Assembly: GCA_027604685.1 (NCBI GenBank)
Contig: JADHYX010000228.1
Location: forward strand, 1 to 34,466
DNA length: 34,466 nt
Reading direction: 5' to 3'
DNA from: Lobulomyces angularis
Lineage: Eukaryota; Chytridiomycota; Chytridiomycetes; Lobulomycetales; Lobulomycetaceae
Part shown: positions 5,524-34,437 of the stretch, one piece after another
How positions within the stretch are numbered: position 1 is the first letter of the stretch
Layout: each line of letters starts with the position of its first letter
Notes under the pieces: generated by a model
What the model saw: only the letters and a program-made list of their open reading frames with translations
Database searches by the model: none
Told to the model about the DNA's origin: nothing
Program-made: the position numbers and the translations under genes

Positions 5524-8500
5524 ATGAAATTAAATTTAACAAAACTAATAAGATTGTATGAATTAGAAGAAAAGTTTTCCCATTGCGAAAAGTTAAATTT
5601 AAAGAAACCTATCAATTCCAAGTCAAATTTGCAAGAAAATTTAAATTTAATTTCCGAATTATTAATTTTTCCATGTTGTTATTTTCAAACCTCAATTATA
5701 TTTAAAAAAATTTTAATTGATTTAATCAGTAGACTAATTTTTGACAACAAGAATAAACTAATTCAGTTGGAGAGTTGTTGTACTCAGCACACTTTCATCA
5801 ACCAAAAAACCAGCTCTTCGCCAAAACATTTAATAGCTAATGATGAAATTAAAATTTCTAATGATACTCCACAAAATTTTATACCTTCAAAGGAGCTTCT
5901 TTTGCATACTTTGTCCAAAATTATTAAATCCTATCCTCAGATAAAAAGGTGAATATTTTTCTACATTTTTTTTATTAATAATTTATTTTAGCCTTTCACT
6001 TGATTTAGGAATGTTATTAGGTTATGATTACCTGACAGTAATATTCTCAGTTTACAATAGCGACTGTGAGGTAACAATAATAATATATAATTTTTTATTC
6101 TTTCTTTATTATTGATGCTTTAACTAGGAATCTTCATTAACCTCATTTAGAATGCTCCAGTTAATAAAATCTTCTTTTAAATTTTTAAAGTACGATCGAG
6201 ATTTTTTTATAAGCATGTTTGACTGGACTGCACTTTATAAACTTACAGATTGCTCTAACTCAATAATTCGAGCTTATGCTGCGCATACCGTAGCAATTAT
6301 AACTGGAATGTCGGATAAAGAAAAAACAATTTTTTTAAGTAAAAAAATATCTGATTCTGTTAACTTCATTCAAGAAAATTTTAATGAAGAAAAAAAAAAA
6401 TTTGAATTTAACTTAAATTCTGCCTCATTTTTACCCATTTTAGAGTATATTTATTGAATTTAATATTATTAATTTTTTTTTTTTTTTTTAAAAAAAAAAA
6501 AATTAATAAATTTAATTTTTAGGATAATGGAATTAGATACTGATGCGAAACTTCAATCTTTCACAATCTACAATGCAGATATCGATAATTCTGTTAATGA
6601 TGATGATACCGATCTGATTATGACTGAAGATGATCTTAGTAAATATACAATATACATGTGTGGAGTATTATTGCCAAAACCTTTTCAAACTGGAAAAAGT
6701 GTTTTGAATGTAACCAAAAGAGGGCTAGTACATACAGATTCTACAAAAGAGTATTTAGAAAGAATCGCTTTAGCCGTTTCAATGAGAACTCCAATATTAT
6801 TAGAAGGATATTCTGGTGTCGGAAAGACTGCATTAATTGAAGAGGCAGCTTTAATCAACGGAAATCCTGGTAAAAATAATTTTACTTGTTTCATATTCCA
6901 CTAATACCTTTAGATTTGTTAAAAATTCACCTGGGTGATCAAACGGACAGTAAGGTGTTACTAGGAACATATGTTGCTACTGCAACACCTGGTACCTTTC
7001 GTTGGCAACCTGGTGTGCTAACCACTGCCGTGGCTGAAGGAAAATGGATATTGATCGAGGATATTAATTTGGCCCCAACTGAAGTAATATCGATCCTTAT
7101 CCCCCTTTTAGAATCAAGAACACTATTTATTCCAAGCAGGTACTTAAAAAATATAGATATTTTTTTCTTATATGATCAATTTTTTTTTTTTTCATAGAGG
7201 AGAAAAGGTTATACCAAAGGATGGCTTTAGAATTTTTGCAACCAAAACAATTTCAAGCAAAAATTCTTATAAGGAAAAAATTGTCGCAAACGGTTTGTGG
7301 GAAAAAATTGAAGTGAAGCCACTATCAAGAATAGAATTAATGGAAGTTGTAAAAATTTCCTTTCCTTCATTGACTTCAGTTGTATCTATCATTGTTGCTG
7401 CGTTTGAAGCAGTGATGGTGGAATTTAACAAAGCTAATTATGGATCAATTGGAGGATCTCATCGATCCTTATCAGTTAGAGATTTAATTAAATGGTGCGA
7501 AAGACTGGAAGCTAGAAAAGTCTTCGTTGATTCACAAAATTCTTCATTAATGGATGTGGACGGAGAAAATGAAGACAACGTCGGACTCGAATTGGAATTG
7601 AAAGAAAATTTATTTAGAGAAGCCTGTGATTGTTTTGTTAGCATGATTTCAAGTGAAACTTTGAGAAATTCTATTCTTTCTAATCTTGGTTATACCCTTT
7701 CTATACCTAATCATCGAATTGACTTTTATATAAATGTTTTTGTTCCTTCTATTCAAGCATCAACTTCATCTATTCAAGCTGGAAGAGTCGAGTTGAAAAA
7801 GTTTGAGTCTAATCGGTACATGATGCATAGCGGAACTTTTGCCACTCTTTCTCACTCTCGTCGATTGATGGAAAAACTCGCTGTTTGCATTTTTATGAAT
7901 GAACCTGTATTGCTAGTGGGCGAAACTGGAACAGGAAAGACGACCGTGGTTCAGCATCTAGCTGGCCTTCTAAATAAAAATTTACAAGTAGTTAATATGT
8001 CACAACAGTCAGACTCTTCAGACTTATTAGGAGGATTTAAACCAGTTGATACAAGACATTTAGCGAAACCACTGAAGTTAAAATTTGACATTTTATTTAA
8101 AAAGACTTTTTCAGTAAAAAAGAATGCGAATTTTTTAGAAGTTGTAGAAAAAGTTTATTCAAAATCCAAATGGCAGCAACTACTTACTGCTTTTTTTAAC
8201 GCTTTTTCTATGGCTGAAAAGGTTTTTAATAAACATCATGAAAACAGTAGCAGCGCGAATGTGCCAAATAGCATCAAGAAGATAAAAGTTTTAGATTTTG
8301 GTATTTTTGATGAATGGTTGGTGTTTCATGAAGAAGTAACCCAATTCCAAGTACAATATCAGCATATCAAAAATAAATTTTTGTTTAGTTTTGTCGAAGG
8401 CACCTTAGTTCAAGCAGTTAAAAACGGTGACTGGGTATTATTGGACGAAGTCAATTTAGCCTCTGCTGAAACATTGGTATAATTTGTTTTTGTTTTTGAA

Positions 8501-20500: not shown

Positions 20501-22983
20501 AGGGAAAGCAACAAGATAAAGACGAATTAGATGAACAGATGGGGAATCTTGATACAAATGATGCAGATGTTGTGGTAAAATTTTAAAGACTTTTTTTTTT
20601 AAATTAACTATTGGTACAGGATGAAAAAATGTGGGGAGACGACAACGAGCAAACAACTGAAAATGAGAAAACGGAAAAAAATTCTTCAGTAAATGCAAAA
20701 GATAATGAAGTGGAGACTGTTGCTAATGAATCAGAATTTAAAGAAAAGACAGCGAAGGAAGAAGACGGTGATAATTCTTCAGTAAAATCAGATGCAGGGG
20801 ACAATGCTCACGAGGAAGAAAATGAAGATGCTCTCGCAGAAGAAGAAGTTGAAGATAGTAATCAAACAGAAAATGTTAATAAGATGGAGAATTTAGAAGA
20901 TAACAGTGGGGTCGATGTAAAGAATGAAGAATCTGGGCAAAATAAAGAGGAAGAAGAAGAAGAACTGAATTTAGGAGATGAGTTGAATTTTGAAGAAAAT
21001 GGTCAAGAAGGTAAAGAAGAAACTAATGACTCCGAAAATATCCCTGACTCACCAATACCAGATTCTGAATGCAATGAGAAAATTCCAGAAGTAGAAAACA
21101 ACACTGATGAAAACTTAAATGAGGATAATTTTGAAACTGCAGATAAATTAAATACTGATGACGCCCTTGAGGAAGAAAATGTAGATGCAGATAATACCCC
21201 TGAAGAAGAAAAAGAAGAAAACAAAATGATCAATAATGATGATGGTGGGGAGAAGCAAGGCAATTTGGAAGAGGAGGAAGCAGAAGAGACAGAAGACTTA
21301 TTGACAAAAGAAGAGAAATTCAACAAAGAAAGCTTTCAACAAAATTTCGGAGTTGAAGGAGATAATGGTGATGCAACAGAAGGAGTGCTAGAAAATTCTT
21401 TTGCCAACAGTGTAGATAATGCGAATACAAATACTTCTCCAGAAAATACAGCAGAAAATGGAAGAAAAGGCATGAAAGAAGAAATGCAAAGTACTGACGA
21501 ACAAAAAAAATCCAGTGATCCTAACCCTCGTCGAAATATGGGTGATGCTTTAAAACACTGGATGACAAAATTAAAAAATTTGCAAGATAATAACGAATTA
21601 GAAATACCTGAAAAAGAGGAATACAATTATGATGCAACAGACGAAAGTGCTGCGTTTATGTATGTTAAAGAAGATGATTTGTCAGACGCGATGCAAGCGT
21701 TGGATACTGCAACAGGCGAACAAGCAAAAGAAAACAAAATCACACAGGATGATAAAAATGAAATTAATGACAGTGAAATGGAAGATATAGAGATGAACGA
21801 AGAAAAATTACCTGAAGAAAATGTCGATTATGATCCTGTAAGCGATGTCAAGTCATCGAATAATAAAGGTAACGAATTATCTGACCAAATGAAGAAGAGT
21901 GCTATTGAAACCAGCGAAAGTAACGAAATAATTGATGAGTCCAAGTTAGAAATTGAAAATAACCATTCTGATGATCCTAAAATACCAAATTTAATTGAAG
22001 AAAAAATTACCAGAGAAAATTTATTAAAAGATTTAGAAGATTTAAGCGATGATGAGGAGAAGTTGGATTATGAAAATTTAAGAATAGAGTTAGATGAAGG
22101 AACAAGGAAGTGGATGGCAGATCCTGAAAGCAGAGAAAACTCCTTACAAGTGTGGAGAACATGTTGTAATTTAACTAGAGAACTTTCCTTTGAATTATCG
22201 GAGCAGTTACGATTAATACTTGAACCAACATTAGCAACAAAATTAAAAGGTGATTATAAAACTGGAAAAAGACTAAATATGAGAAAAGTTATACCATACA
22301 TCGCAAGCGATTATAAGAAAGATAAAATTTGGATGCGAAGAACTAAACCATCCAAAAGAACTTACCAAATTATGCTTGCCATTGATGATTCCAAATCTAT
22401 GTCGGAGTCGAAATCAATTCAGTTAGCTTACCAATCTTTAACATTAATTTCCACAGCATTGACGCAATTAGAAGCTGGAGATATCTCGGTGGTTAGTTTT
22501 GGAGAAGAGGCGAAATTGCTTCACCCATTTGAAAAAACTTTTAATGACGAAGCTGGTGCAACGGTGATATCAAGATTTACTTTTGATCAAGGAAAAACAC
22601 GGGTGAAGGAAATGTTAGAGTGTTGTATGGGAATATTTGAACATGCGCGAGGCTCTAGTAATAGTGAACTGTGGCAGTTGCAAATTGTTATTTCAGATGG
22701 TATTTGTGAAGATCATGAAAAGATTAGAAGTTTGGTGCGAAAAGCAGCAGATCAAAAAATTATGATAGTTTTTTTAATTTTGGATTGTAGAAAAGAATCT
22801 TTGTTAAAAATGACAACAGTTTCTTACGAAGAAGATTCCACGGGTAGCATGGTTTTACAGATGAACAAGTACATAGAAACCTTCCCCTTTGACTATTACA
22901 TAACTTTACGAAAAATAGAGTTGTTACCAGAAGTTTTATCTGAGACTTTAAGACAGTATTATTCATTGGTTGGAAACCATTAA
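5524..22983 (+). CDS. MDN1: Midasin, dynein-like AAA ATPase of 60S ribosome biogenesis
   Basis: Giant nuclear ATPase that strips assembly factors (Ytm1, Rsa4) from pre-60S particles. Twenty-five exons join to 5434 codons plus stop (yeast about 4900, human about 5600). Introns: 5949-5991, 6071-6127, 6445-6522, 6870-6913, 7140-7197, 8477-8526, 9296-9351, 9507-9551, 10025-10078, 11548-11592, 11764-11798, 12681-12723, 13130-13170, 13476-13524, 14217-14265, 14518-14569, 14922-14974, 15370-15411, 15557-15598, 15778-15819, 15891-15935, 16087-16130, 18120-18162, 20575-20619. Six P-loops: GYSGVGKT (about residue 369), GETGTGKT (704), GPTSAGKT (1147), GETGCGKT (1450), GSPGVGKT (1846), GPTACGKS (2164). 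Walker B is canonical in AAA2-5 (LDE), IED in AAA1 and IDN in AAA6. Then follow a long helical linker, an acidic tail and the MIDAS domain. The start is the first ATG of the open frame. Intron 16 has a weak GTTTTT donor, and one exon-intron border there is less certain. Confidence 0.96.
20270..22080 (+). other. MDN1: Acidic D/E-rich region of midasin
   Basis: From the end of exon 24 through most of exon 25 (about residues 4546-5135) the frame is dominated by Glu, Asp and Asn with short EEEEE and EDEEEG runs. It has no predicted fold and is broken only by a short helical patch around MGDALKHWMTKLKNLQ. Midasins from yeast to human carry a flexible acidic tether here that lets the MIDAS domain swing onto the AAA ring. 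It is interrupted by the 45-bp intron 24. Confidence 0.85.
22366..22983 (+). other. MDN1: C-terminal MIDAS (von Willebrand A-like) domain of midasin
   Basis: The metal-ion-dependent adhesion motif DxSxS is present as DDSKS (nt 22384-22398), followed by a candidate threonine ligand in QGKTRV and the ISDG aspartate. In the family this domain grips the ubiquitin-like domains of Rsa4 and Ytm1. The protein ends 29 residues after TFPFDYYITLRK, as expected for the family C terminus. Confidence 0.9.
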
Positions 22984-23076
22984 TTTTTAAATTTTTTTTG
23001 TAATTAATAGATATTAAATATTAGATTTTATTTTTTTTCTAATGTATTTGTAAATTAAAAAATAGAAGAAAGTTAA

Positions 23077-23082
23077 AATAAA
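23077..23082 (+). terminator. AATAAA polyadenylation-signal candidate of MDN1
   Basis: AATAAA lies 94 nt past the MDN1 stop, in a short spacer before the next gene. Low information content in AT-rich DNA. Confidence 0.35.
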
Positions 23083-23110
23083 GAAACTATCTATGGTTTA
23101 AAAAAAGGGG

Positions 23111-23146
23111 GCTTGTGAGTTGAGGCTTCAATGAGTGAGGCTTGGC
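23111..23146 (+). promoter_or_regulatory. Short imperfect direct repeat upstream of the SH3 gene
   Basis: TGAGTTGAGGCTT is followed within 16 nt by TGAGTGAGGCTT in an otherwise A/T-dominated spacer of about 335 bp between MDN1 and the SH3 gene. The repeated GAGGCTT could be a binding site. This is only a compositional observation. Confidence 0.25.
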
Positions 23147-23317
23147 GTTAATTTTCTTTAAATTTTTTTACCTAGTTTTCTTTTGTGCATTTTCTTTTGT
23201 TTTGCAAGATTGTTTTTTCTGACACTCATTAAAGCCTGGTTTCAATTTTCTTTATTTGACTTGTTTCGAACCTCGTTCTTGTCTATAAAAGCTGAGTCAA
23301 ATTCTAATATTCAACCT

Positions 23318-26300
23318 ATGAAACTAAAGCGATTTCATGATAGAAGCGATCTACGTCTCTATCCTACTCAAATAATCACTACTCCTGAAAATGGTGATTC
23401 AGCTATAACTTACCAAGTAGATACTCCTACTTTTTTGACAGATGTAAACAGCAACATTTATTCTGCAATCATTTCCGAAGTTTATACTACTTTCGATGGA
23501 ACACCTACTACTTTATATGAAACTGGAATTATTACAGTAGTTGGTGGAAAAGTGTCAACTGTATTTGCTTTCAATAATTTTTTATTTTTTTTAACGTAAA
23601 ATTTTATCAACAATAATTCTTTAATTAGATAAATGGAATACCCACAAACTTTGGTGGTCAACCAACTACTATCTTTGGTGTGTCTGTCACTGTAATAATA
23701 AAAAATTTTAAAAAATTTTGAAAATTAATGTTTTTTTTTATAAAAAAGATAAATGATGAACCAACTTACATTTTTCCCTTTCAAACCTTTTTAACAACTA
23801 TTACCAATAATGCTCATACAGCTTTAATAACCGCAAAGACAACTATTGTTGAAGGAAAAACCAACAGTGTTATTGAAACAGGAATTATCACTGTAGTTGG
23901 TGGAACAATAACAACTGTATGAAGATAGATATTTTTAAGAAAATGTTACTAAAAATTTATTGTTTATCTTAGGTTAATGGAGTTCCTACTGTATTTGGAG
24001 GAACACCAACCACTATATTTGGCTTGTCTACTAATGTATTATAATTAAATATTTAACAGATTTGTTCATCTATTTTTAGATGGCTGGAACAAACACTGTT
24101 GTTTTTCCATTTCGAACTATAGTAACAAATTTAAAATTAAACTATATTATTAAAAAAAAAAATTTTTTTTTTTCTTTTCAAGGTTTCTGGCACTTCGTTG
24201 TTGATATTTCCGTCTGAAACAATTGTAATTAATTTCTTATTTTTTTTAACTGTTTTTATTGAAGATTACCGCGACGCCAACAGTAGTTTTTCCAATGACA
24301 ACCATAGTAATATTTTATTAAAAAAACAAAAAAAAATAAAATAGCTTTAATTATTTTTTCTTTTTATGATTTATTCTATTTATTATTTTTTAGATCAACG
24401 GAGTCGCTACCTTAATTTTTCCAACTGAAACCATCGTAATACTAAATTATTATTTTAAATTTTAAATAGTTTTTTTTAGATCAGTGGGGAACCATCGTTG
24501 GTTTTACCAACTCCTCCAATTCCAGGAATAGTTATTCCACCTCTAGCTACTGGTACTGCACCAAATCCTTTGCCAACAGCTGCGGTGACTTCTCCAAACG
24601 GATTACAATCTTCAAATAATCTTCTACTTTATATTGGAATAGCAATTTTAATTTTTTTTCTAATAGCTCTCTTAATATTTTGTGCACTACATAAAAGAAA
24701 AAAGGCTTTAAAATTTAAGAATGATGAAGAAGAGTTGGGACCTCAACCTGGAGGTATGTTACATAATTCATCAACACGTCGGACAATAGTCGATAGATCA
24801 ACCTCTTCTTCGTCGAGCGAAAATAGCAATCTTATTTCTTTTAATAATATGGCAATAGCTAATGAACCCTTAAACATTCGTAGTTCTAGTGAAGATCCAT
24901 TCTACCCGGCCTCAGAAAATGCTACATATGGAACCTCCTTTAATAACAACTTCTCTGATTTTTCAGCATCAGAAAATTTAGTTGATCCAGAACTCGTTGG
25001 CGGAGCATATTTTAGCAATTTTATACCTTTTCAAAAAAAATTAGAAAAAATTCCTAGTAACAAAACGTTTGATAGTAACTTTGCAAATGCCTCAGTAATA
25101 AATGACGCTGCACTAGCATCATCATACTTAAGTATGCAAAATACAAGTTTAGAAAATGATGAATCTCATGATCTCGCTAAAGATATTATTGGTCACTATG
25201 AAGGTGCAACAGTTCCTGAGTCCCCCACTAGTAATGGAACTTTTGGTGAAGTGACATCGTTTGGTAACAACCAAGTTGTAGCATCTATATCAAATGAAAA
25301 ATTAGATATGGCTAATGAAGATGTTGTCAATCATTCCAATAATATCGCTAACAAATTTGAAGAACAAAATTCTTCCGATAAAAACGAATTAAAAACGGTG
25401 CAAGATTACTTATTACCGTTAGCAGTAGGAGCTGTTTCTTCCGCTATGTATGCTGAAAAAGAAGAAAAATCTAGCTTGCCCCAATATGAGGACAGTAATA
25501 AAATTACTAAAGAATACAACACTATTTCCGGTGAGGTGATGGAAGTTCCATTTTCTAAAACCAGAGACGTTAAATTTGATCCCGCAAGTATTCCCCCTGA
25601 TTCCAACACAACTATACCACAAGAGGTAGATACTATCCTCTCAAAAATCGATACCCATGATACAAGTACAACTTTACAAAATTTTACAGCTACTGCTATT
25701 GACAACAATAGAAACATTGTAGAGGCTATCAACACCGACTCCAAAGACCAGTATTTTGACAAGGAAGCTAATTATTTTGACAGTAAAGGCGAAGATATTC
25801 CCATTATAGTTGTATAGTGAACTTTTGAAAATATTTTTTTTTAAAATTTTTTTTTTTTATTTAGTCAAGTCCAAGCAAAACGACTATTTCAGATTTTAAT
25901 GAAAATAAGATCTCATCCAATACCAGCTATACAACTTCAAAAAATATTCCAAAAAATAACTTGAGCATTGAAACTAAATGTAAAAATGAAACTAAGCGTG
26001 ATTCAAATAATGCTACAGCATTATTGTCTCCAACCTCTTCCTTAGTATCTCCTACATCGAGCAATGAAGGCATTAAAAACAGCTATGAGTCATATGTACA
26101 AAATCAAATTGACGAAGCTGATTTATCTGTAAGAGTTCCTCCTCCACCAACTGATTTCGTTGCTGCTCAACCATGTAAGTATAATTATTAACAAACATTT
26201 TTTCAATTTATTTGTTTATTGTCATCAAGACTTTCCAATTCGCCCAGACGAAATTCATATGCAAGTTGGAGATTTGGTTGGTATTGAGCGTATATTCTCT

Positions 26301-29300
26301 GATAATTGGGCAAGGGGACAAAATATGAGTCAAGGAAAAAAGCGCGGATTGTTTCCGCTATCAATATTAACGCCAATAAAAAGTGGTCCCTCTCAAAATG
26401 TAGTAAAAAGTAAAGTCTCAATTTTTGGTGGTAGTTTAACTGCGAAGACTTCAAATTCCAGAAAAAATAGCAGCGAAGTGCGTTATTCGGAAAAAAGAAA
26501 AACTAATGTAATTCCTGTGAGAACCACTAGTTTACCAGGCAATGAAACGTTAAAAGAAATTGAAATTTTACCTGACTTGAGCAACAGCGTTAAAAAAAAT
26601 AAATTTTTGTCTAGAAGCAACTCCATAAAAACCATTGGCACAGTAAAATCCAAAGCTTCAATAAACAGTATTACTCCTTCAAAAGAACTTATCGTTTATC
26701 AAGTATTTAACTGTTTTGAATATCCTTTACTTAATTTTTTTTTTTTTTTTTTTGCAGGATTTACAAGATACAGTATGGGATATTTCACAGAAATCAAGGC
26801 TTAACTTTAGATCATTTGTTCGCCGTTGTAGAATGTATTCGAAAGATTTTGATATAAAAGTGTTTTTGGAAAACCTTTCAAACTGTGAAAATATCAGGGA
26901 AGAAGCAATGTTTAAAGTCATAAAGGTTTTAAATGAAAAATTTAATTTTGTATTAAAAATGTTTTACTAACTATACTTTAGTCCTCTGGTATAAATAATT
27001 TGGATGATCGCACCTTCAATGATCTGTTAATAACAATCGGAGGAGATGATGATAAAAATACTTCAATGTTAATCTTCAAGCACCTCAGAAACGCTTTAAG
27101 AGATTTGGGGGTTGATCAATTTTTGGAAGCAAATGTGGATGTTGCCACCGAATCAGTAAATAATAAAAAAATATCAACATTAATTCTAATGATTCTTTAC
27201 TTTAGAAATATTTGGCGACCTCTCAAGACTTTATAACCAAAGTGCATTTAATGGGAAATTCTAGTTCATTTAATTTACCAGCTTTTGTTAATAGTTGCAT
27301 GAACATAAATCCTGACTTTGACTTTAGAACATTTTTAAAGATCATGGTAGAGAAATCTAACAATCTTGATCACGATACGATATATGAAAATATGAAAGTA
27401 CGTATCATTTTTAAATTCAAAAAAAATTAACTTTATTATTTAAAGGATTGTGGAGTTTTGGTATCTAAAGAGGAATATCATGAGATCATTAGTTTATTAT
27501 GTGTACAAGATGATATTGTACTTGAAGTTATTAAGCAGTGGATAGAGGTGGTTTCAGTCGTCGGAATTTCACGATTTATTGAAACTATTGACACTTTCTA
27601 TGATGATGAAGAGGATGATATGGATGCAATTGTTATTGAATCTTTTTTAACTAGTGTCGCTTGTTTAAGTTCTCAATCAACTTTCGCACTTAGAGAATTT
27701 GTTACACAGTCCTTGGAATTAAATTCCAACTTTAATTTTGAAATCTTTTTGAACTACTTACTTTTGTCTGACACCCCAGCAAATGATGAAGAATTTCTTG
27801 AAATTTTTAAGGTAGGAAAATTTTTTTAAAATTTTTTTTTTTTTAAACCTATATCAAATTTTATTACTTCAAATAGAATGCTGGCTTAGTATTAGATATT
27901 ACCACCTACAAGCGTTTAATGATTACTTTATGCGGTGACTATGAATTGCGTTTTACAATAATTAGCCATCTGAAATTATTATTAAAGCAAAAAGGAGTTA
28001 AATGGTTTATTTCAAGAATTTTTAGCACAATTCAAGAGCGTTCTCTAACTGATATGGAAGGACGATCTCTTCTTACCAAAATATACTCTATAAGCTCAAC
28101 AGCAACATTTGACTATCGTGGGTTTTTGGATAGATGCAGAAGATATAGTTCTACCTTTGATATCAAAATTTTCTTGAATGAGTTAGCTTTTCTGGAAGAA
28201 TCTGTTACAGATGCGAATATTAAAGAGTTATTTGTACTTTCTGGATGGGATATTTCTGATGAGGAGTATGTAAAAGTGTTAAGAGAACTCTGTGGAAATT
28301 TTAATTTGAGATTAAAGATAGTCGAAGAATGGAAAAACTATTTAAATACCAACACTCCCAAGTATTTTATTAAGTAAGCAAACCAAAACCAAAAAAAAAT
28401 TCTTTTGATTTATTATTTTATTTTATTTATTTTATTTTTTTATTACAATTTTTTATAGATATATCTTCATTTGGTTAGAGGAGAGGGAAAGTGCAGAATT
28501 TGCTTTAAAGGTACAATTTATCACCAAATTGGAAATAATATGTTAAAATATATAAATGAATAATTTTTTTTTTTGTATATAGCAATTTTTTTTAAAACTT
28601 CAATCTTATGGAGATAAAGTTCAATTTAATTTGAATGAATTTTTACTTGAGTCAAGAAAGCATTCCAACATGTTCGAATTGAGAATATTTTTAGAGATTT
28701 TAAATTCCAATGTCAAAAGCATTGGAGAAATTACAACAGCGGAAGTTGTAAAAACATTTCAAGACTCAGGTCTTAATATTTTGGAAACCGAAGCAATTCA
28801 GCTGATAGTTATACTGTTTAAAGATTACAATATTGGACTTGAAGTTTTGAAGGATATGATAAATGCATCAAAAATGGGTATTTCATCAATTGAACACCTC
28901 CTTATGCATTATTACTCCTGTAAGTGTTATAAAAAAATAAAAGCTAACTAAAAGTTTTGTATACCTTAGGGATAAGTATAGTCCGGGAATTTTACATTAG
29001 GATAAGAACTATTGGTGAAGCAGTTAAATTTGACTTGCATAGCTTTATAAGTGTATGCAATACTCTTGAGAGTTCCAAATTTAATTTATCAAAATTTTTG
29101 GGTAACTTTGTTTTGCTCGAAGTGGAAAATCTTAATGTACTTACTTTACTAAACATCTTTAAGGTATGCAGTTATTATTTTATTTTTTTGTGTTTTTTTT
29201 TTTTATTTTATTAGCAATCTGGATTAGAAAATTTAAATGAAGAGGATTATAGAACTATAGTAGAAACACTTTGTGGTGACTATAATTCACATCTTTCGGT

Positions 29301-30322
29301 TTTCCGCGAGTGGTTGATTACATTGAAAGAATGTGGGGTAGACACTTTTGTTAGAATCAACTTTAGTTATATCACTCTTGAAGGGTCCTTGAATCAACTG
29401 GATATAAAAACTTTAATTAAAGTATCTTTTATTGAACTTTAATTAATTTAATATTAATTCCAAATTTTTAGATTTTTTTTGCTGATATTTTGTCGTTAGG
29501 AGGGAGATTTAATATTGAGAAATTTTGCTTGGAAGCAAAAACTTTCAATCCCTCATTTGATTTAAAGTTGTATTTGAAATCATTTGGATCTAATTCAAGT
29601 TTTGATTCGATATTTTTCGAATCAAAATTAACTGAGTTAACAACAGTTCAAAAAGAGTCACTATTTTTAACCCTTTTTGGATTAAAAAATAAAAATCTTT
29701 TTAACACTGTTCAAATGCTCTTTGTCACACTTATTAGAACAATCGGAGTTGAAACAATAATAAAAGAGATTCCTTACATTTTGAACTTGAAGTATAATTC
29801 TTTGGCCGAGGTTATCTTTACCGAAACCGAAAATTTGATAGCAAGTAGATTATTTTTTTTCAAGTTGAAGTATATGAGAAACGATTCCGTTGGAATTAGG
29901 TTTCAGTTACTGAATTTTTACAATATTTGCAAAAAGTTAAACACTAAGTTTCAGTTGATAAAGTTTCTAAGGACTTTAGAACTTTTTTTTTTAAACTATA
30001 CTAAGGTGCAAGTTGATTGGATTTTAGCAGAAATTGGCTTAGAAAATATAAGTGGAAGCGAAAAAGTTGCAATTTTTCTCACTTTGGTTGAAGATTACAC
30101 TAAAATGGATGAATTTTTTCATAACTGGGGGTCCGCAATATTTGCCAGCGAGATAAATGTATACTTAAATTGTCTAAAAGTTGAATATCCTGAAGTTAGA
30201 GGTAAAAAACTAAATTTTTACATCTTTTCAAAAATTAATTAAAAAAAAAAAAATTAGATATCATTGAGCAAGAAATTAATAACCAAAAAAAATTGATACC
30301 AACCATACAATTGGAGACGTAA
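23318..30322 (+). CDS. Large single-pass membrane SH3 protein with exon-encoded ectodomain repeats and C-terminal repeats
   Basis: Not recognised as a whole. Exons: 23318-23560, 23629-23691, 23749-23916, 23973-24035, 24080-24121, 24183-24224, 24265-24306, 24394-24435, 24480-25811, 25865-26174, 26230-26702, 26758-26925, 26982-27155, 27206-27397, 27446-27811, 27877-28373, 28459-28510, 28583-28919, 28970-29163, 29215-29421, 29472-30201, 30258-30322 (1933 codons plus stop). In order: a Thr/Val/Gly repeat region (to about residue 245); proline-rich stalk; one membrane span (about 282-304, LLLYIGIAILIFFLIALLIF) followed by HKRKK, so the repeats are probably outside; about 470 Ser/Asn/Glu-rich residues; an SH3 domain (about 775-835: DEIHMQVGDLVGIE, DNWARG, GLFPLSIL) behind PPPP; and about eight C-terminal repeats. 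It resembles fungal Fus1-like membrane SH3 proteins in layout. The first ATG is used, but the frame runs open upstream to about 23176 through a hydrophobic stretch, so a signal-peptide exon may be missing. The exon 9 donor could be 25809 or 25812. Confidence 0.8.
23629..24521 (+). repeat. Array of exon-encoded 14- and 21-residue repeats
   Basis: Exons 5-8 (24080-24121, 24183-24224, 24265-24306, 24394-24435) are each exactly 42 bp and encode MAGTNTVVFPFRTI, VSGTSLLIFPSETI, ITATPTVVFPMTTI and INGVATLIFPTETI. Related units begin exon 3 (INDEPTYIFPFQTF) and exon 9 (ISGEPSLVLPTPPI). Exons 2 and 4 are each 63 bp and encode INGIPTNFGGQPTTIFGVSVT minus its last residue in comparable form: both share NG-PT-FGG-PTTIFG. 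All borders are phase 0. The introns between them are unrelated in length (61, 40, 87 and 44 bp after exons 5-8). Confidence 0.9.
26758..30201 (+). repeat. About eight degenerate protein repeats of about 90-150 residues at the C terminus of the SH3 protein
   Basis: Approximate units: 26758-27155, 27206-27640, 27640-28077, 28066-28510, 28583-28919, 28970-29421, 29472-29830, 29830-30201 (introns included). Each has a first half with F(N/D)xxxF plus a later (F/N)(D/N)(I/F/L)xxFL, such as FDYRGFLDRCRRYSSTFDIK, and a second half with SGL-x-L and LCGDY-like cores followed by a tryptophan and G-V-x-x-F. Examples of the core: LCGDYEL, LCGNFNL, LCGDYNS, LFKDYNI, LVEDYTK. Helix-rich by eye; I do not recognise the family. 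Confidence 0.75.
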
Positions 30323-31003: not shown

Positions 31004-32206
31004 ATGAAATTAGTTAATTTTTCTATTGTAAAAACGATAGCGTTGCTTTCAGTTAAATTGGTTAATGCCAAAGCGGGTGAAATCGATCCAGCGTTATATC
31101 AGCAAAGTCCAGATTGTTTGACTTTTTGGGCCTGGCTTCCTCAACTCTATCCAAGAGGTGTTACTAGTTGTTGCGACATAACTGCTGCTAATAAAGATTC
31201 TTTTCCTATAATAATTACTTGTGATCAAAATTTAAGAATTACAAAAATGTATGGAGTTTTGTTTAATAATTTTTTTCTAAAAAAAAAAATTTTTTGGTAG
31301 TAATATTGGTTCATTATATAATCCTGCATTAGCAACTGTAAAAGGAAACTGGAAAAGTTTAGGAATAGGAAAATTAAATGCACAGTTACCAGCATATCTA
31401 GGAAATTTAACTGAACTCACAACATTTTATATTACTGAAGCATTTTTATATGGTCAAATACCAAAAGAATTTTCAAAGTTAACAAAATTGAAATATTTTT
31501 CTGTTGGTTATAATTCTTTAACTGGAGATGTTCCAGAAGGACTTTTCAAAAATATGAACAGTTTAGTTGCTCTGGATATAAGTCATAATAAATTTAGTGG
31601 CCCAATTCCTAATTCTTTCATTGGATTACCAAGTTTAATTTCAATGTAAAACTGTTAATTTATTTTATTATTTTTTGTTTAGAATTCTTTTATATGATTT
31701 TTTTTTTTTCAAATAGTCAATTAGGATCTAATCAGTTTTCTGGAGCATTACCTGATCTCTCAACTATGAAATCAATTGGAACCGGGCCAAAATACGATGT
31801 AGAAGATGGTGGTTTTACACCAGTATGTGATTTGAATAATTTAGGTCCCAAATCTTGCATAGCAAAAGGAGAGGATTTATCGAAAGTTCCGAATACCTGC
31901 GTATTGCCTTCTCCTTCACTCAAAGGTATTTTTTTTTTTTTTTGTTAGTTTTTCTAACATATACTTCAAGTTTGCGTTGCAGAAACAATAAAAAGTTCTC
32001 CCACACCAATATATGCTGAAGCAATACAACCAAAGAAAGAATTAATTAGCGAAGCTGGTAAGATAGGAATTATAGTATCAAGTATTATTCTATTTTTGGT
32101 TGGAGGTTATATGATTGGTTTTCATATTATTAAAAGAGGTAATAGAAAAGCAGCTTTGGAAGAGGAGCAAGTAAAAAAGGAAAGGATTGATAGATCTTCC
32201 GATTAA
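31004..32206 (+). CDS. Single-pass cell-surface leucine-rich-repeat protein
   Basis: Four exons (31004-31248, 31301-31645, 31717-31925, 31983-32206) give 340 residues. A signal peptide (MKLVNFSIVKTIALLSVKLV, cut near NAKA) is followed by a cysteine-containing N-cap (CLTFWAWLPQ ... CC), then about four plant-type LRRs (for example LVALDISHNKFSGPIPNSF and LKYFSVGYNSLTGDVPE) and a C-terminal Cys-containing cap. Near the C terminus is a membrane span (GIIVSSIILFLVGGYMIGF) and a short basic/acidic cytoplasmic tail of about 30 residues with no kinase. The role is probably recognition or adhesion at the cell surface; the ligand is unknown. Exon 2 ends inside the LRR array. It follows another single-pass membrane gene on the same strand. 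The plant-type LRR motif is common in early-diverging fungi and other protists, so it does not by itself indicate transfer. Confidence 0.85.
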
Positions 32207-33220: not shown

Positions 33221-33514
33221 ATGAATCATTTTTTTAAATCTTTTCGAAATAATGGTAATTTCAATTGTTAAAAACAAAAAAAAATTAAATTATTTTTTTT
33301 TTAAGAAAAGGAAAATGTAAAATCAGCAGAAAAGTATTTAGTGACGAGTATAACAAACTCAAATATGATAGAAGTTACAAATAAACTGAAAGAAGAAAAA
33401 AAAAAGGAAGAAAAGAAAAAAGTAAAAAAAAATTCAATTGATGTGTTTTTATCATTAAACTGTTTCAGTCCAAAAGAGCAAAAAACAAAGAAATTAAGTA
33501 CCATAATAGAATAA
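33221..33514 (+). CDS. Small lysine-rich protein, paralog of the gene at 33849-34142
   Basis: Two exons, 33221-33254 (34 nt) and 33306-33514, joined in phase 1 by a 51-bp intron, give 80 residues. The start MNHFFKSFRNN is followed by a charged middle with Lys/Glu runs and a conserved tail KKNSIDVFLSLNCF ... KLSTIIE. No signal peptide or membrane span is seen. The function is unknown. The model is supported by the second gene on the opposite strand, which has the same exon-1 length, the same intron phase and the same conserved tail, a match unlikely unless both are real genes. Confidence 0.72.
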
Positions 33515-33940
33515 CATAATATAATAACGATAGAATAGACTTTTTGTACATAGTAATAATATTTTTATGGATTTTAACAATATACAATTTTTCATTATTT
33601 TCTCATTCATTGTTTTAATTTCAAAACTATTTACAGACTACAGGAGACCTTTTAAACTTTTTTCACTTGACTTTATTTAAATAATGAAGAAGTAATGAAA
33701 TAGCAAATTAAAATAATATATTTTAACATTTAAATAACTTAAATATATATGATAAATAAATAAAAAAAAGAAATATAATAATACAAGTGGTATCTAGAAT
33801 TTAAAACTATATACAAAGACATTAAAGTAGTATTTTATAATTAAGAATCTACTCAGTTATTGTACTCAGTTTATTACTCTTTTCCTCATTACCACCAAAG
33901 CAGTTTAACGATACAAAAACATCAATTGAATTTTTCTTTA
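33423..33940. repeat. Inverted repeat formed by the conserved tails of the two small genes
   Basis: Arm 1 is 33423-33462 and arm 2 is 33901-33940. The reverse complement of arm 2 matches arm 1 at 36 of 40 positions, centred on TTCAATTGATG and TTAAACTG. The arms encode the conserved KKNSIDVF(L/V)SLNCF motif of the two paralogs, and the loop between them is 438 bp. Identity falls away outside the motif, so selection on the protein or a local exchange, rather than a fresh duplication, may keep it. Confidence 0.8.
33515..33848. other. Convergent spacer between the two small paralogs
   Basis: 334 bp of AT-rich DNA between two stop codons. It must hold both 3' UTRs. No canonical AATAAA is seen just after 33514; several ATAAATAA-like runs (about 33749-33765) are candidates on the + strand. 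Nothing else is recognisable. Confidence 0.5.
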
Positions 33941-34142
33941 TTTTTTTCTTTTCTTCAACTTTTTTTGTTTTTGGTACTTCTTCTTTTATATTTGAATTCG
34001 TAATATTAACAACAACCTCTTTTTCTGTTGGTTTTAAACTTTTTTTATCTAACAATAAAAATTTTCAAATTTTAGTTGATGTGAAAAAAAAAAAAATGTA
34101 ATATTTACCACTCTTTCCAATTGTTTTATAAAAATTTAACAT
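33849..34142 (-). CDS. Small lysine-rich protein, paralog of the gene at 33221-33514
   Basis: On the minus strand: exon 1 34142-34109 (34 nt), intron 34108-34049 (60 bp, GTAAAT..TTAG), exon 2 34048-33849 ending in TAG; 77 residues. The start is MLNFYKTIGKS, the middle is Lys/Glu rich, with the shared ITNSN tetrad-like segment, then KKNSIDVFVSLNCF and KLSTITE at the end. Architecture (34-nt first exon, phase-1 intron) and even total genomic span (294 bp) equal those of the + strand paralog. No known domain, signal peptide or membrane span. It runs opposite to every other gene in the window. Confidence 0.72.
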
Positions 34143-34377: not shown

Positions 34378-34437
34378 ATGCCACTCCGCTCAAAATTAGG
34401 ACAAGGAAGCGGATATTTACAAATGGCACTCCGCTCA
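34378..34437. promoter_or_regulatory. Paired CACTCCGCTCA elements upstream of the minus-strand small gene
   Basis: Two 15-bp near-identical sequences (34378-34392 and 34423-34437, one mismatch in ATG[C/G]CACTCCGCTCA) lie 45 bp apart, with an inverted AGCGGA half between them (34408-34413). They stand out as GC-rich in AT-rich DNA about 235-295 bp upstream of the start of the minus-strand gene, which is where upstream activator sites would be. The region runs to the window edge, so a larger array is possible. Confidence 0.4.

Follow-up and report, generated by a model that had tools for sequence, protein, structure and literature searches.

Lengthening of the rod of fibrillar collagens by the addition of exons has been proposed for their arrays of 54-bp and 45-bp repeat exons (PMC4450265), and the micro-exon genes (MEGs) of Schistosoma are described as containing tiny symmetrical exons whose loss leaves the frame intact, with a surface or secreted product (PMC4350168). 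The gene reported here, from the chytrid Lobulomyces angularis, resembles both. As in the fibrillar collagens, rows of short exons correspond to whole short peptide repeats of a putatively extracellular rod, and as in a collagen-type array the exon lengths are multiples of the repeat in a single phase (seven of seven exons are multiples of 21 nt, in phase 0); in contrast to collagen, the gene lacks Gly-X-Y and any indication of a triple helix, it is fungal, the unit is seven residues long and there are only seven such exons. Its exons 2–8 are, like those of the MEGs, very small and symmetrical (42–168 nt, phase 0–0), whereas in the MEGs most of the coding region consists of small exons, compared with 462 of 5793 coding nt here, and alternative splicing is reported there (PMC4350168), no splicing variants being known for the present gene. 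We file it as neither a collagen-type gene nor a MEG, and as a case of repeat growth by symmetric exon duplication. No report of a fungal microexon array with one exon per repeat was found among the open-access papers listed in literature searches.

In the window, by which we mean the whole 34,466-nt stretch of DNA that was analysed, a single gene on the + strand occupies positions 23318–30322, beyond a midasin gene whose stop codon is at 22983. The hand-built model of this gene, referred to as the SH3 gene after its SH3 domain, comprises 22 exons encoding about 1930 residues, and its introns 1–8 are all GT–AG, 40–87 nt in length and of phase 0. Exon 1 (23318..23560, 243 nt, with an alternative donor at 23552) ends in ETGIITVVGGKVST and is followed on the + strand by exon 2 (23629..23691, 63 nt, INGIPTNFGGQPTTIFGVSVT), exon 3 (23749..23916, 168 nt, with a rival acceptor at 23838), exon 4 (23973..24035, 63 nt, VNGVPTVFGGTPTTIFGLSTN), the four 42-nt microexons, exons 5 (24080..24121), 6 (24183..24224), 7 (24265..24306) and 8 (24394..24435), and exon 9 (24480..25811, the end favoured by the splice model being 25816), which continues from the stalk into a Pro-rich linker, a transmembrane segment and a Ser-rich region. 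A previous, sequence-only reading had proposed a run of seven phase 0–0 exons at this place, and the exon coordinates bear this out for exons 2–8, although the end that it gave for the array, 24479, is where intron 8 ends; the last exon of the array ends at 24435. It was also right that four of the exons are of exactly 42 nt and that each encodes one 14-residue repeat, but the pattern that it wrote for this repeat had 15 letters; the actual 14-residue pattern is h-x-[GA]-x-x-[TL]-h-h-F-P-x-x-T-I (MAGTNTVVFPFRTI, VSGTSLLIFPSETI, ITATPTVVFPMTTI and INGVATLIFPTETI in exons 5–8, respectively). As a predicted gene structure, the exon array is well supported.

The base unit of the stalk is seven residues long, h-x-[GP]-x-x-T-h. 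The autocorrelation of the stalk is positive at lags of 7, 14, 28 and 42, whereas its local peaks at lags of 21 and 35 are negative. Of the 24 phased heptads (residues 82–249), 20 have I, V, F, L or M at position 1, 18 have G or P at position 3 and 16 have T at position 6, the most degenerate heptads being those in the middle of exon 3. Exons 2–8 hold 3, 8, 3, 2, 2, 2 and 2 heptads, the starts of exons 2–9 all fall on heptad boundaries, and introns 1–8 cut one and the same heptad boundary in phase 0, each before [IVM][NAST][GDA]. The 14-residue unit is also present at the start of exon 3 and at the start of exon 9 (ISGEPSLVLPTPPI). The end of exon 1 and the exon after it are like the end of exon 3 and the exon after that (ETGIITVVGG..., followed by a 21-residue exon), and from this likeness exons 1–2 and 3–4 look like a duplicated exon pair, of which ETGIITVVGGKVST would be the beginning.

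As a background, 30 ab initio genes with a coding sequence of at least 900 nt were taken from 149,462 bases (the window and 23 loci), with the SH3 gene excluded; they are predictions of a model whose training set was 17 introns, and the loci, chosen for other reasons, are not a random sample. Multiples of 21 nt account for four of 80 predicted background internal exons, compared with all seven of exons 2–8, and among 122 internal exons none is of 42 nt and three are of 45 nt or less. The 152 background introns have phases of 51/62/39 (0/1/2) and a median length of 55 nt, with a 95th percentile of 95 nt, a 99th percentile of 114 nt and a maximum of 151 nt. The longest run of phase-0 introns in the 30 genes is four, in one gene, versus eight in the SH3 gene; the run is counted as eight and not nine because the choice of the model for intron 9 is of phase 2. 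Exon boundaries, reading frame and repeat register coincide to seven residues in this compact genome, where introns measure about 55 nt, and if RNA confirms the structure it would be a fungal counterpart of collagen-style growth via exon duplication.

The reading that we favour, and hold to be fairly probable, is that the array arose by old tandem duplication of exon-plus-intron units and is constitutively spliced, in a fungal SH3 membrane protein the stalk length of which is set by the genome. The stalk DNA would have grown by repeated tandem duplication in which an exon was copied along with its phase-0 intron, a process that would leave introns 1–8 on one heptad boundary and exons 2–8 as whole heptads. 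The duplicated stalk exons would then have undergone long divergence, and the four 42-nt exons would be ordinary coding exons, constitutively spliced between short introns. The exon copy number in the genome would set the stalk length, with exon gain or loss altering the length between lineages, and exon-number typing of isolates would read out this genome-set length.

Alternatively, a repeat stalk that was already present as one exon may have acquired its introns afterwards, at corresponding sites. The introns had been described as mutually dissimilar, and the array as either old or fast-diverging in its introns, and this description holds: of the 28 possible pairs of introns, two have z>2 and the other 26 are no more alike than shuffles. 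Since the introns show none of the shared ancestry that would prove duplication, later insertion, which would account for the lack of any sequence common to the introns and for which identical repeats could supply identical insertion sites, keeps some weight. It has to contend, however, with eight introns at exactly one heptad boundary and in one phase, with an intron common to the exon 1–2 and exon 3–4 pairs and with a second repeat of the same gene that has the same intron habit (see below), and, as a weak point where insertion into AG sites is concerned, with upstream exon ends that carry AG in none of eight cases, compared with 31 of 99 in predicted background genes. We regard later insertion as doubtful, and return to tandem duplication as the preferred origin.

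The constitutive splicing that goes with tandem duplication may be set against a second alternative, in which one or more of exons 2–8 are skipped, perhaps by life stage, and the stalk varies in length while frame and register are kept. The sequence-only reading had seen in this locus such a splicing-based length generator, and its premise is correct: exons 2–8 are all symmetric (phase 0–0), any subset of them could be lost in frame, and the heptad register survives their loss. Frame neutrality alone is nevertheless no evidence for skipping, because exon duplication leaves it too. Some splice sites at the beginning of the array are poor, with strengths in the 6th percentile for the acceptor of intron 2 (that of exon 3) and in the 22nd for the intron 1 donor, and a design of this kind is used by the Schistosoma micro-exon genes (PMC4350168); the splice sites of introns 4–8, which bound the microexons, are however ordinary, with donor percentiles of 0.31–0.58 and acceptor percentiles of 0.42–1.00, middling to strong. 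The skipping of a single exon requires an intron of 147, 143, 169 or 173 nt for exons 5, 6, 7 and 8, respectively, and of 188, 281 or 163 nt for exons 2, 3 and 4, and a length of at least 143 nt, the least that a microexon skip needs within its range of 143–173 nt, is found in one of the 152 predicted background introns. In one fungus, Schizophyllum commune, exon skipping amounts to 1% of coding splice events (PMC5034255). Retention of any one of introns 1–8 leads to a frameshift or a stop. A length generator operating by the splicing of exons 2–8 is thus unlikely in our estimation, and the locus offers a simple test case of whether tiny symmetric exons between short introns are ever skipped.

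The predicted product is proposed to be a single-pass membrane protein that runs from a heptad stalk through a transmembrane helix and a long linker to an SH3 domain and a region of repeats of about 121 residues. All six of the highest hydropathy windows belong to a single, strongly hydrophobic segment (24621..24692, + strand, approximately residues 283–306), which is followed by the basic flank KRKKALKFK. The hydrophobic segment and its basic flank point to an N-terminus outside the cell and make an extracellular location of the stalk plausible, and the SH3 domain lies on the side of the basic flank, which is consistent with a cytosolic position. The stalk contains no cysteine and no N-glycosylation sequon, and 26% of its residues are Ser or Thr. 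The SH3 domain (26162..26369, + strand, residues 779–829, interrupted by intron 10) scores under the Pfam cut-off, matches a solved SH3 domain with E=3.7e-6 and has 57% identity to a paralogue. Such a protein may act as a sensor or adhesin at the cell surface, with its SH3 domain as the adaptor on the inner side. Yeast Fus1 is a single-pass SH3 protein without a cleaved signal, and in Fus1/Sho1-like proteins the SH3 domain is at the C-terminus. The present protein is like Fus1, Sho1, Msb2 and Hkr1 in being a predicted fungal surface protein tied to an SH3 module, but differs from Fus1 and Sho1 in that about 1100 residues come after its SH3 domain, which is not C-terminal. Sho1 has four transmembrane segments, and Msb2 and Hkr1 are described with Ser/Thr-rich ectodomains, one transmembrane segment and a link to an SH3 signalling module (PMC4411306). 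Msb2 and Hkr1 carry an HMH domain, and the stalk here differs from theirs in being an ordered heptad repeat.

A Pfam search with the ectodomain returned no family above its cut-off. Residues 128–198 give a weak match to the profile PF21300 (LbR_Ice_bind, the beta-roll repeat of grass antifreeze proteins; E=0.0095), which at 16.5 bits against a gathering cut-off of 30 means that the stalk is not a member of this family on this evidence. The beta-roll of the grass antifreeze family has a coil of about 14 residues, and it would be an attractive guess that the stalk is a beta-solenoid to which every 42-nt exon contributes a single coil. If such a fold were combined with life-stage splicing that sets the number of coils, the reach of the SH3-coupled surface protein would be tuned in whole coils with the fold undisturbed; we look on this combination as a long shot.

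On the duplication reading the microexons are ordinary coding exons, and their reality was assessed with a splice-and-codon model, blind to the repeat, that was trained solely on the adjacent midasin gene, the 17 introns of which divide 6/7/4 over phases 0/1/2, and run forward–backward over the SH3 gene with introns of up to 500 nt permitted. Introns 4–8 have posteriors of 1.000, 0.990, 0.979, 0.977 and 0.996, and in six of seven model settings, one of them with flat codon use, all five are at least 0.66; in the harshest setting, with an intron rate of 1e-4 and a length tail that is 60% flat, the range falls to 0.09–0.68. When the 444-nt interval between exons 4 and 9 was dinucleotide-shuffled 150 times, each time in a sequence context shorter than that of the real run, 73 shuffles gave no intron above 0.9, 75 gave one and two gave two, compared with five in the real sequence. 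The nucleotide differences among the microexons are distributed 37/24/56 over the three codon positions, the third position holding 56 of 117, and codon pairs for the same residue use a different codon in 25 of 39 cases. The four microexon peptides have 5–8 of 14 residues in common per pair and a mean pairwise BLOSUM62 score of 36, against null maxima of 7.0 for 20,000 random 14-mer sets from the same protein and 9.3 for 20,000 residue shuffles. That exon 4 is instead spliced directly to exon 9 over a 444-nt intron, with the microexons unused and their repeats mere leftovers, is scarcely credible, since this intron reaches 0.10 under the harshest prior only, while introns 4–8 stand at 0.977–1.000 under the default model, exons 5–8 show third-position bias and synonymous changes, and the longest predicted background intron is of 151 nt.

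The 5' part of the array is modelled less uniformly. For exon 1 the donor at 23552 has a posterior of 0.655 versus 0.325 at 23561, and for exon 3 the acceptor has a posterior of 0.493, with 0.404 for the rival at 23838. With a free start the gene finder begins the gene at the ATG of exon 5 (24080) and omits exons 1–4; with the start fixed, the best intron of the model is the hand-set one at 17 of 21 introns and differs at introns 1, 9, 11 and 12. In model terms, exons 5–8 are therefore firm with a free start and exon 4 is firm with the start fixed, whereas exons 1–3 are less firm and depend more on the register of the repeat, with exons 2–3 depending mainly on it and on the resemblance between exons 1–2 and exons 3–4.

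The stalk repeat was sought elsewhere in the 20.8-Mb genome with two motif patterns and one protein query, and none was found by these means, which diverged arrays would escape. The pattern TTYCC N7 ACNATHGTA (FPxxTI followed by GTA) occurs at eight places, four of which are exons 5–8; the remaining four (L018, L019, L024 and L025), considered as arrays, look on reading like chance matches. The PTTIFG pattern occurs at three places, namely exon 2, exon 4 and one chance match at C94. The ectodomain protein query matched five places at E<=0.001, every one of them within the window, and is blind to single microexons, because exons 5–8 themselves went unmatched. In the protein collection, no homologue of the whole protein was found at E<=0.001 (8000 candidates scored), and none of residues 30–330 at E<=1 (5822 candidates). 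For the neighbouring midasin, among the 120 matches listed of 991, the named records close to the top are fungal (Rhizopus microsporus at 48%, Gigaspora rosea at 45%, Atractiella and Ambrosiozyma), with a plant record lower in the list; together with the gene content this fits a fungal source. Related SH3 domains were found at E<=0.001 at seven places outside the window, at C3, C112, C400, C97, C25, C408 and C62 (L043–L049). In the six of these paralogues that have readable DNA upstream, the ab initio models there contain no row of equal small exons, the model at C97 ending before the SH3 domain; at C3 the first 2715 bases are N. By eye, the SH3 domains at C112, C400, C25, C408 and C62 stand behind a transmembrane segment with differing ectodomains, and there appears, again by eye, to be a family of SH3-tailed surface proteins in this genome.

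The region downstream of the SH3 domain (26758..30322, + strand) is without a Pfam family and contains six segments of about 121 residues, with anchors at residues 994, 1116, 1238, 1358, 1481 and 1598. In an anchored gapped alignment the mean pairwise score of these segments is 80.4, whereas the best of 500 random anchor sets scored 71.3, the anchors having been picked by eye ahead of this test; self-BLASTP of the protein detected no C-terminal internal repeats. In four of the six repeats a phase-0 intron (introns 12, 14, 15 and 19) lies at one position just 5' of the anchor, K|xxG[ILV], and the gene keeps introns at fixed repeat positions in both of its halves. A stretch resembling the C-terminal repeat, with 26% identity and E=3.7e-5, occurs at C307 (L050, approximately 5535–6915) in a predicted secreted protein with a hydrophobic start and a Thr-rich linker, and so this domain, judged by sequence similarity, appears to be present in a second context.

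No signal peptide is evident at the ATG at 23318. Among 11 upstream arrangements examined, two give a hydrophobic start, both from an ATG at 23042; these arrangements cross a poly-T tract, and TATAAAA is present at 23284. Within 23042–23175, a candidate 8-nt first exon, ATGTATTT, would provide the SH3 protein with a hydrophobic N-terminus resembling a signal. A search of both strands of the window for TATAAAAGC found two sites, at 23284 and 33129, which lie 34 and 92 bases upstream of the predicted starts at 23318 and 33221, respectively. The gene adjoining the SH3 gene (31004–32206, + strand) appears by eye to encode a leucine-rich-repeat membrane protein, with four exons in the model. It is followed by two small paralogous genes in inverted orientation (33221–33513 on the + strand and approximately 33860–34140 on the − strand), both with KKNSIDVF[LV]SLNCF near the end, and close to the end of the window [CG]CACTCCGCTC occurs in two copies, at 34381 and 34426.
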